A stretch of DNA of 38,139 nt from an uncultured Alphaproteobacteria bacterium (lineage in GTDB: Bacteria; Pseudomonadota; Alphaproteobacteria; SP197), in NCBI GenBank assembly GCA_938048755.1, contig CALIUG010000055.1, forward strand, positions 1-38,139, read 5' to 3'. Below the pieces are notes generated by a model. The model was not told the DNA's origin and ran no database searches. It saw nothing but the letters and a program-made list of their open reading frames with translations. Below are positions 35,575 through 38,139 of the stretch, in pieces (position 1 is the stretch's first letter; every line of letters begins with the position of its first letter). The translations under genes were made by a program, and so were the position numbers.

Positions 35575-36579
35575 ATGACGTGGGCGAACGGCTACGACAT
35601 CACACCCCTTCCGGACGCGCGGTTCGGCGGCGTCATCACCGTCGAGGACGGCGTGGCGTTCGTTGATGCCGTGGAAGCTGCCCCTGACGAACTGCCCAGT
35701 GCACTGGGTGATGCCGACGGGTTCCTGCTGCTGAAGGGCATGGGTGCAATCTCGGAGGATCCCGAACTCCTCATCCGCCTCTCGCGGCCGTTCGGAGCCG
35801 AAGTCGAGGATTACGCGAAGACCAGCAACCGCACGAACCTGCTGCATCCCCATTCCTCGCACATCATCCGCATTTCCAACCTGCCGCCGATGAACTTTCC
35901 CGCACCCGACCTGCCTGATCCGCCGCGTCTGCCCGATGGCGGGTTGCCCGTTCAGTTTCCCCAGCGGCGCGGCTGGCACACGGACCAGAGCTTCCGGCGT
36001 CCGCCACCCGATATCTCGCTCTTCTATGCCCATCAGCCTGCACCGCGTGATCAGGGCCAGACGCTTTATGCTGACGGGGTTGGTGCCTACCAAGCTCTGC
36101 CGCAGGACCTCAAGGAAAAGGTCGAGGATCTGATGGCGCTCCATGTCGCGCCGTTCAAAGGTTACGGCGAAGATGCGGTGATGAACGGGGAGCCGCCCCA
36201 GGAACTCACCGAGCGTGACGGTCCCCAGGCCCAGCCAGTTGTGCGCGTGCACCCCGTGACCGGTCGCAAGGCACTCTACCTGTGCGAACGCGAACAGATC
36301 GACTGGCGCAACGGTCCCTTTGTGGGCATGGAAGCGGGTATCCATGGCGATGGTGCCAAACTTCTTTATGAACTCATGACGCACTTCACCCAGCCTGCCT
36401 TCACCTATGCCCATCACTGGGACCAGGGTGATCTGGTGATCTATGACAACCGTTGCACGATCCATTCGGCAACCTGGTTTGATACGCAGAAACATGGCCA
36501 CGTCATGTGGCGCACGACGGTCTGGGGTAACCCCGGCCCCGCCTATGACGGCGAAGTCAGAAGCTGGGAAGCGGCATGA
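35575..36579 (+). CDS. TauD/TfdA family dioxygenase
   Basis: RRGWHTDQSFRR (HxD), LVIYDNRCTIHSATW (distal His), RTTVWG. Confidence 0.92.
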   Translation: MTWANGYDITPLPDARFGGVITVEDGVAFVDAVEAAPDELPSALGDADGFLLLKGMGAISEDPELLIRLSRPFGAEVEDYAKTSNRTNLLHPHSSHIIRISNLPPMNFPAPDLPDPPRLPDGGLPVQFPQRRGWHTDQSFRRPPPDISLFYAHQPAPRDQGQTLYADGVGAYQALPQDLKEKVEDLMALHVAPFKGYGEDAVMNGEPPQELTERDGPQAQPVVRVHPVTGRKALYLCEREQIDWRNGPFVGMEAGIHGDGAKLLYELMTHFTQPAFTYAHHWDQGDLVIYDNRCTIHSATWFDTQKHGHVMWRTTVWGNPGPAYDGEVRSWEAA

Positions 36580-37721
36580 GCGCAGGACGCAACGAACCCC
36601 AATTCGATGCCGAGGAAATCTTCGAGGGCATCCGTGACTGGGTGCTGTGTGAAAGCCCAACGGTGCATGTCCCGGGCGTCAACGCCATGATGGACAAGGC
36701 CGAGCAGGCGCTTGCCCGCGTTGGCGCGACCATCGAACGCCAGCCGGGCAGGGACGGTTTTGCCGATATCGTGACAGGCCACATTCCCGGAAAACGCGAG
36801 GGCCCGGGCATTCTGGTGCTGGGCCATCTCGACACCGTGCACATGGTCGGTACGCTCGATGACAAGCTGCCGTTCCGCCGCGAGGGCGACAAGGTCTATG
36901 GCCCCGGCATCTACGACATGAAGGGTGGCATGTTCACGGCCTGGTATGCGCTGGCCCAGCTCCTGCGCGCTGGTGAGACGCCGGAGCTCCCCGTCACCTT
37001 CATGTTCATTTCCGATGAGGAGGTCGGCAGCCCTTCGACCCGCGCACGGATCGAAGAGACCGCCAGGGCGCACAAATACGTCCTGGTGCCCGAACCCGCC
37101 AAGGGTGAGACCGGGCGGCTGGTGACAGGACGCTATGCCTTCCTGCGTTTCACCGTGCATGTCTCGGGCAAGCCCGCCCATGCCGGCTCCCAGCTTGCCC
37201 GCGGTCGTAGCGCAATTGCTGAAATGGCGCGCCAGATCATCGCCATCGAGGACATGACCGACAAGGAAACCGGCGTAACCTACAGCGTCGGCACCATCGA
37301 GGGCGGCACCTTCGTCAATGTCGTTCCCATCGAATGCAGCGCTCAGGTCCTGGCGGTTGCGCCGTTTGCCGAAGCTATGGACGACATCCGCGCCAGGATG
37401 GCCGCGCTTAAACCCTTCAACGCCGATTGCAGCGTTACCGTCGAACCCGGCGCGGTGCGCCCGCTGTTTGAAGCCAGCGAAGGCACCATGGCGCTCTACG
37501 AACAGGCCGAAGCTATCGCAAGGGAGATCGGCTTTGTTCCCGGACACGGCCCCTCGGGCGGCGGTTCTGACGGCAACTTCACCGGAGCCCTGGGTATCCC
37601 CACGCTCGACGGCATGGGCCTGATGGGTGACGGCGCCCACACCCACGAGGAACACGTGCTCTATTCCTCCATGGTGCCCCGCGCGAAGATGATGGCGGGC
37701 CTGTTCCGGACGCTGGCGTAA
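36576..37721 (+). CDS. M20 family metallopeptidase (carboxypeptidase G2-like)
   Basis: LVLGHLDTVHMVG, GPGIYDMKGG, FISDEEVGS, GGGSDGNFTGALGIPTLDGMG, GAHTHEEHV. ATGA overlap with the upstream gene. Confidence 0.93.
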   Translation: MSAGRNEPQFDAEEIFEGIRDWVLCESPTVHVPGVNAMMDKAEQALARVGATIERQPGRDGFADIVTGHIPGKREGPGILVLGHLDTVHMVGTLDDKLPFRREGDKVYGPGIYDMKGGMFTAWYALAQLLRAGETPELPVTFMFISDEEVGSPSTRARIEETARAHKYVLVPEPAKGETGRLVTGRYAFLRFTVHVSGKPAHAGSQLARGRSAIAEMARQIIAIEDMTDKETGVTYSVGTIEGGTFVNVVPIECSAQVLAVAPFAEAMDDIRARMAALKPFNADCSVTVEPGAVRPLFEASEGTMALYEQAEAIAREIGFVPGHGPSGGGSDGNFTGALGIPTLDGMGLMGDGAHTHEEHVLYSSMVPRAKMMAGLFRTLA

Positions 37722-37739
37722 TACCTACACAAACTACCC

Positions 37740-37773
37740 GACTTGGCCCGGCTTGACCGGGCCATCCATCTCC
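37740..37773. repeat. Left arm of perfect 34-nt inverted repeat flanking the GIY-YIG ORF; contains an internal hairpin
   Basis: gacttggcccggcttgaccgggccatccatctcc; internal ggcccgg-cttga-ccgggcc (37745-37763). Exact reverse complement of 38106-38139. Confidence 0.95.
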
Positions 37774-37810
37774 AACTCTCTAACCTGATGCCGCCTCGAC
37801 CTATTCTCTG

Positions 37811-38098
37811 ATGCAACCCTGCTTCTATCTCCTTTCGAACAGAAAGAACGGCGCACTCTACGCAGGTTCAACCAGCAATCTTGCTGCACGGATCAACCAG
37901 CACCGAAGTCGGAAACCTGGCAGTTTCAGCGCACGCTACGGTGTCGTGCGTCTTGTGCACGCGGAGTTCTACGAAACCATGCCGGAAGCCATGCAACGGG
38001 AGCGTCGCGTCAAGAAGTGGAAACGTGCCTGGAAGATCGAACTGATTAAGAGGGACAATCCCGCCTGGAACGATCTCTATCTCACGATGCTCTGGTGA
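37811..38098 (+). CDS. GIY-YIG nuclease family protein (95 aa)
   Basis: MQPCFYLLSNRKNGALYAGSTSNLAARINQHR...YETMPEAMQRERRVKKWKRAWKIELIKRDNPAWNDLY: single-domain GIY-YIG pattern (GIY position altered to CFYLL, YIG to YAG). Confidence 0.9.
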   Translation: MQPCFYLLSNRKNGALYAGSTSNLAARINQHRSRKPGSFSARYGVVRLVHAEFYETMPEAMQRERRVKKWKRAWKIELIKRDNPAWNDLYLTMLW

Positions 38099-38105
38099 TA
38101 GGCTG

Positions 38106-38139
38106 GGAGATGGATGGCCCGGTCAAGCCGGGCCAAGTC
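38106..38139. repeat. Right arm of perfect 34-nt inverted repeat flanking the GIY-YIG ORF; contains an internal hairpin
   Basis: ggagatggatggcccggtcaagccgggccaagtc; internal ggcccgg-tcaag-ccgggcc (38116-38134). Reaches the last base of the window, so it may extend further. Confidence 0.95.

Follow-up and report, generated by a model that had tools for sequence, protein, structure and literature searches.

A small GIY-YIG nuclease gene between inverted CGTC-type REP hairpins: a candidate autonomous REP element of Alphaproteobacteria

Why should a gene for a small GIY-YIG nuclease be enclosed by two perfectly inverted palindromes, and could its product be what spreads them? The locus that raises this question lies at the end of a 38,139-nt stretch of alphaproteobacterial DNA (hereafter the window), which is the complete contig C55 (G000:C55) of a draft genome in 301 contigs. 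The original prediction, made from the window alone, compared the unit with the REP palindromes that RAYT transposases mobilize and suggested a RAYT-like role for the GIY-YIG protein, a role that remains an inference. Bacterial REPs have been divided into a GTAG and a CGTC superfamily, of which the former accompany RAYT transposases, whereas the latter, including dRS3 of Neisseria and RPE-4 and RPE-6 of Rickettsia, seem to be without a dedicated transposase and might, it was suggested, either be disappearing or rely on enzymes borrowed from elsewhere (Di Nocera, De Gregorio and Rocco 2013; PMC3733652). We find that this published CGTC superfamily, rather than the GTAG REPs mobilized by RAYTs, is the right frame for the element. 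A search of the open-access literature, restricted to open-licence papers, returned nothing connecting GIY-YIG with REP, REPIN, RAYT, dRS3, or MITE.

The architecture described in the original prediction was borne out (Table 1): the two 34-nt arms are reverse complements of each other without a mismatch, they enclose a GIY-YIG open reading frame, and the spacings are 37 nt from the left arm to the start codon and 7 nt from the stop codon to the right arm. Each arm had also been said to fold alone, and a single arm indeed folds as a DNA hairpin with 8 bp and a 5-nt loop (−11 kcal/mol, z about −5), while the window contains two occurrences of the 19-nt core of the arm, compared to 0.02 expected. 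The left arm is oriented with its GAC/CGAC end facing outward and its CCA end facing the gene, and matches the R1 model with 39.1 bits (37739–37768); the right arm, incomplete at the contig end, matches it with 29.5 bits (38111–38139). The leader belongs to a spacing class (mode about 30–40 nt) that is also found in homologous cassettes, and the G-free outer flank resembles that at other CGTC REPs. The upstream neighbor owes its M20 label to the naming in the original prediction and not to a family search; the gene is kept in relatives that lack the cassette. Because the contig ends inside the right arm, the outer boundary and the right flank are unseen, and the real arm may exceed 34 nt. Contig C135 starts with the same repeat as the right arm, and is a possible but unproven continuation of C55; the neighboring gene on C135 is not the one that follows the M20 gene in the relatives G193 and G199. 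Several draft contigs end in or near REPs (the end of C55, the start of C135, C266:25, C255:198, and C67:214), which shows that the repeats fragment the assembly.

Table 1. Features of the cassette and its surroundings, in window coordinates
Feature	Position	Strand	Description
Left arm	37740..37773	+	REP hairpin GAC-TTGGCCCGG-CTTGA-CCGGGCCAT-CCA, then tail TCTCC
Leader	37774..37810	+	37 nt, left arm to start codon
GIY-YIG nuclease ORF	37811..38098	+	95 aa, single domain, PF01541 E 3e-16
Right arm	38106..38139	-	Left REP in inverted orientation, truncated at the contig end
G-free flank	37722..37739	+	18 nt directly outside the left arm; from sequence
M20-type hydrolase gene	36576..37721	+	Neighbor marking the insertion site, outside the element

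The palindrome is not confined to the window. The original prediction would have been weakened had the repeat occurred nowhere else near GIY-YIG genes; instead, it is dispersed through the source genome and also brackets the GIY-YIG gene on contig C26 with the same stem. With up to three mismatches allowed, one 22-mer from the arm is matched 24 times in the genome and its reversed control not once, and a hairpin covariance model, trained on REP hairpins adjoining GIY-YIG genes, yields at least 93 copies, a lower bound with 150 of the 2355 candidates scored. Among these copies are 35 neighboring pairs (dimers), in 30 of which the CGTC ends point outward. The gap measures 13–146 nt (mostly 36–146 nt) in 31 of the dimers, and the only four with gaps above 150 nt (342, 365, 372, and 407 nt) are those that hold the GIY-YIG genes of C55, C201, C26, and C72. 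Each of the five small GIY-YIG genes in this genome adjoins palindromes, the pair on C225 being of a divergent type that was not called by the structural finder. No such repeat lies within 1.5 kb of the three other GIY-YIG genes (L006–L008). Short dimers moreover share their subterminal tails with individual cassettes: CCATCTCC is common to short dimers and the C55 cassette (the window type, with mostly CGAC heads), CCATGCCTGAG to short dimers and the C26 cassette (head CGTC), and CCCATGCTGT to short dimers and the C72 cassette (head TGTC). Judged from sequence alone, this pattern looks like that of autonomous elements accompanied by their own non-autonomous derivatives.

The DNA immediately outside the CGTC end is poor in G, which is found in no more than 4 of 49 own-genome REPs at positions −12 to −2. 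The depletion recurs in foreign genomes, with 1.66 G per 12 nt compared to 3.57 in controls (223 REPs, 82 other loci), and could reflect a preference for unstructured single strands as insertion targets. The same stretch of about 12 nt is also C-rich, both in the source genome and at loci L033–L112, L133–L145, and L170–L189. A search of Rfam gave no known RNA family above chance. Covariation within the hairpin was counted and left out of the evidence, because the sequences had been chosen as hairpins and the argument would have been circular.

The link between gene and repeat extends far beyond the source genome. Using its five small GIY-YIG proteins as queries, we retrieved 80 homologous loci from a public collection of genomes, with similarity of the protein as the only criterion and with the caveat that our own proteins doubled as the search query for all of the foreign loci. 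Flanking inverted repeats (score of at least 16) were found at 44 of 77 loci, compared to 3 of 962 shifted windows, so homologous GIY-YIG genes in other genomes do have flanking palindromes, a further point on which the original prediction might have failed. REPs were also defined structurally, by a G[T/A]C head, a 7–12 bp stem, and a CCA tail, and 82 GIY-YIG loci, consisting of foreign homologues from many phyla together with the own genes, were compared with 238 neighboring ORFs. Of the 82 genes, 65 have a REP no more than 150 bp away on one side or both, as do 20 of the 238 controls; for REPs within 150 bp on both sides, the numbers are 31 and 1, respectively, and among small control ORFs (below 500 bp) a single one in 86 is flanked on both sides. 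At the stringency used, about half of the flanked genes have a REP on one side only. The spacing is tight, with gaps of about 30–40 nt upstream (to the first matched codon) and 1–14 nt after the stop codon, and while the stems vary widely among loci, the head, loop class, and tail are constant. In a second sample, drawn from alphaproteobacterial genomes, 17 of 18 genes have an adjacent REP within 300 bp; since these loci were picked by hand among the hits, several from genomes with known REPs, this is a replication and not a random draw. Protein similarity follows stem similarity (Mantel r 0.34, 0/2000), a correlation that would largely be expected from co-inheritance as one unit, without any specificity. 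We regard the association between the GIY-YIG gene and CGTC REPs as established, with hardly any room for doubt.

The two also go together at the level of whole genomes. In 192 alphaproteobacterial genomes of at least 90% completeness, the nuclease is present in 58 and REPs are abundant (at least five hits, here called REP-rich) in 65. Both are found in 50 genomes, the nuclease alone in 8, the repeat alone in 15, and neither in 119, corresponding to an odds ratio of 49.6 (Fisher p 4e-24). This p-value ignores phylogeny, though the genomes span well over 100 families. Y1_Tnp, the transposase class to which RAYTs belong, served as a control in the same 192 genomes and has an odds ratio of 1.9 (p 0.07), and a subset of Y1 genes with long frames, picked by eye, shows a weak association at 3.5. 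The correspondence is incomplete in both directions, with no detectable nuclease gene in 15 of the 65 REP-rich genomes and fewer than five REP hits in 8 of the 58 genomes that have the nuclease.

The explanation that we favor, and consider probable without being sure of it, is that the GIY-YIG nuclease acts on its flanking hairpins and thereby spreads CGTC REPs, in a manner analogous but unrelated to that of the RAYTs. It builds on what is observed, namely the association itself, its breadth across the genome and across phyla, the fixed architecture, and the presence or absence of the element at orthologous sites; cleavage, binding, and copying are inferred, and neither cleavage nor binding nor transposition was observed. 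We favor it because no other tested enzyme tracks the repeats, because the geometry of the cassettes equals that of the dimers, because the tails match cassette by cassette, and because sites have been gained or lost. Under this model, the unit would be an autonomous REP element, in which a GIY-YIG gene lies between inverted CGTC-type hairpins with their CGTC ends outward, and short REP dimers with the same subterminal tails would be its non-autonomous, MITE-like derivatives. The nuclease would recognize the hairpin in its single-stranded or extruded form, as might arise during replication, during DNA uptake, or in a cruciform, and would cut hydrolytically at or beside it. Host repair would then copy the element to a new or homologous site, either by homing-like copying or by template switching. 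GIY-YIG enzymes hydrolyze DNA, whereas RAYTs use a covalent tyrosine link. Such a link is not known from GIY-YIG enzymes, and re-joining must therefore come from the host.

Comparison of orthologous sites supplies the evidence for gain and loss. The original prediction had treated the cassette as an insertion that relatives might lack, and empty sites do exist: the site after the M20 gene is without the cassette in G193, G199, and G195, all of the same genus. In the close relative G193, only CCGACTGGGCCTGGCTTGACCATGACGG is left at this position, a degenerate hairpin remnant resembling an arm that has collapsed. At the C26 site, G195 has the same neighbors, with neither REP nor gene between them. 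Single short dimers vary in the same way within the genus: G193 shares C296:16069, which G195 and G199 lack; C296:13471 is missing from G195, and C149:3945 from G193. Target-site duplications and exact joints were sought at six sites, three of dimers and three of cassettes; none could be defined, because the intergenic flanks diverge too fast. In two genomes of a different genus (G203 and G200, loci L150 and L152), the site after the M20 gene is occupied by a dimer of longer GTCATCCCGGACAAGC...CCGGGA palindromes. These resemble the palindromes around the C225 nuclease, and the site may be a repeated landing place.

Plasmids of Sphingobium offer a finer view. Several strains carry a cassette between fnrL and a response-regulator gene, while TomTYG64 and TomTYG74 have at the same position a solo palindrome composed of the outer halves of both arms, which in TomTYG64 is perfect. 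Two further strains have neither cassette nor solo palindrome at the fnrL site, and in TomTYG73 the nuclease copy is frameshifted. The near-identical pTom plasmid loci downstream of fnrL (L136–L145) form a natural series for insertion and excision. A solo palindrome exactly where relatives hold a gene between two halves is also what the main rival explanation would predict, namely that something else spreads the palindromes, and that the GIY-YIG gene is a passenger, a homing parasite inserting into the REPs that its nuclease cuts. Some GIY-YIG genes sit within REP arrays, and the 15 genomes with REPs and no detectable gene are likewise compatible with this. However, deletion between the 8-bp ACCCCGGG repeats common to the two arms explains the solo palindromes equally well, and we cannot tell whether they are products of such a deletion or pre-insertion sites. 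It also speaks against a homing parasite that no other tested enzyme tracks REPs (odds ratio 1.9 for Y1_Tnp compared to 49.6), that no Y1 transposase is matched in the source genome, and that short dimers share cassette-specific tails, as derivatives of the cassettes should. We consider the homing parasite unlikely, yet it has to be kept in mind.

The protein itself is a single-domain GIY-YIG nuclease by sequence. The catalytic residues Y6, Y17, G19, R27, H31, E64, and N83 are all present in the window protein, and are invariant or nearly so in alignments of 51 and 103 members. GIY-YIG is the sole Pfam match of the ORF, and a C-terminal signature, W-x-R-x-WK..LIE..NP.W.DL, is specific to the small GIY-YIG family studied here. 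In a search with the AlphaFold model (pLDDT 96), the nearest solved folds are UPF0213, followed by the branch nuclease SLX1 and UvrC (best Foldseek E 4e-4). This likeness to structure-specific nucleases, inferred from a predicted structure, would fit an enzyme that acts on hairpins. The resemblance to SLX1 and UvrC and the strong conservation of the catalytic residues would also suit a domesticated nuclease with a host role in trimming or repairing hairpins, in which case the gene would be immobile and the REPs would serve as terminator or autoregulatory sites; REPs have indeed been proposed to act in transcripts (PMC3733652). A host function of this kind sits poorly with the patchy distribution of the gene (58 of 192 genomes), with its multiple and divergent paralogues, up to 10 per genome, and with sites that hold the gene in one species but not in its relatives. 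It is further contradicted by decayed copies with premature stops or frameshifts; premature stops occur in the C26, L107, and L173 copies, as expected for a mobile gene with decaying copies. Altogether, we find domestication improbable. In the C26 cassette (L002:1468–1731), the premature TAG comes soon after the conserved NP motif, and the nuclease looks like a C-terminally truncated, decaying copy. Identification as a defense gene was rejected in the absence of a PADLOC model match for three copies, as was identification as a phage gene, for which there was no match to a phage record and only a marginal PHROG hit.

Mobilization of CGTC REPs in trans by a RAYT or another transposase, with the GIY-YIG gene being incidental, was left open by the 2013 survey, in which no tyrosine transposase had CGTC repeats on its flanks (PMC3733652). 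Both enzymes are encoded in 16 of the 65 REP-rich genomes, and the long-frame Y1 genes are weakly associated with the repeats, but 34 of the 65 have the nuclease without any Y1 match. A Y1_Tnp profile search of the source genome gave no match, and with the association across genomes being only weak, we reject this explanation as very improbable. Least credible of all is the absence of any functional link, with REPs and small orphan genes simply gathering in the same long intergenic regions: although a raw comparison of REP density with coding DNA does overstate the enrichment, because REPs are intergenic, location bias as the cause of the flanking is contradicted by the gene-level controls (31 of 82 against 1 of 238 on both sides, and 1 of 86 for small ORFs), by the tight gaps, by a density of only 0.46 REP per kb in far intergenic DNA, and by the lack of such REPs at L006–L008 and Escherichia coli yhbQ.

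How, then, does the element that we take to be spread by its own nuclease relate to known systems? With the CGTC REPs it shares a stem of 8–9 bp usually opening with AT, a loop of 4–5 nt, the CCA tail, the dispersed inverted dimers (here 35 dimers among at least 93 copies), and a center of gravity in the alphaproteobacteria. As to the unpaired head, which in the superfamily is CGTC (or TGTC/CCTC) and among the repeats here likewise CGTC or TGTC in many copies, the window arms read CGAC, and sister copies in the genome with the same stem and the same loop have either CGTC or CGAC. The difference is that a GIY-YIG gene lies between the units here, whereas the survey had no transposase flanked by them. 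With the RAYT/REPIN system it shares a small nuclease gene between inverted REPs, many short gene-less dimers, and a repeat variant that matches the gene copy, but the enzyme is an unrelated GIY-YIG hydrolase, there is no Y1/HUH match in the ORF or the genome, and the tag is CGTC/CGAC instead of GTAG. The UPF0213/YhbQ proteins (1zg2, 1ywl) are the nearest solved sequences and folds and are of similar length. However, the 5-kb neighborhood of E. coli yhbQ is free of CGTC REPs, and the present family has its own C-terminal signature. Classical IS elements and MITEs are marked by terminal inverted repeats together with a target-site duplication; here there are inverted repeats and empty sites, and the diverged flanks define neither joints nor a duplication.

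A broader reading would be that small single-domain GIY-YIG nucleases are dedicated mobility enzymes of CGTC REPs, and constitute a second, independently evolved machinery across several phyla, which relies on hydrolytic cleavage and host repair and not on HUH tyrosine chemistry, with the short dimers, including the dRS3 arrays of Neisseria, as non-autonomous derivatives. We see this generalization as evenly poised between right and wrong. Few short repeats are as common in the alphaproteobacteria as CGTC REPs, which are also known from Neisseria, Rickettsia, and other phyla; their pairing with one nuclease family makes the question of their mobility directly testable with a hairpin of 30 nt and a protein of 95 aa. 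If the reading is true, selfish elements based on REPs arose two or more separate times, using unrelated chemistry, and many of the genes annotated as “GIY-YIG nuclease family protein” or “excinuclease ABC subunit C” are element genes and not repair genes.

Part of the biochemistry may already be known. A 2025 report is said to describe Ssn, a Neisseria family of small site-specific GIY-YIG nucleases, which reportedly cuts a dispersed repeat only as single-stranded DNA. If so, this supports the proposed mechanism and lowers its novelty. The gonococcal homologue in our collection does have dRS3 repeats beside it: at L133:1368–2043 (N. gonorrhoeae 2022NG-0076), the gene for a GIY-YIG homologue lies among dRS3-type CGTC repeats, which, going by sequence, would link Neisseria dRS3 to the same nuclease family. 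The record that contains this locus, NZ_CP119140.1 (2.17 Mb), is of chromosome size and filed as a plasmid, as is NZ_AP026896.1 (4.94 Mb) from Aeromonas caviae.
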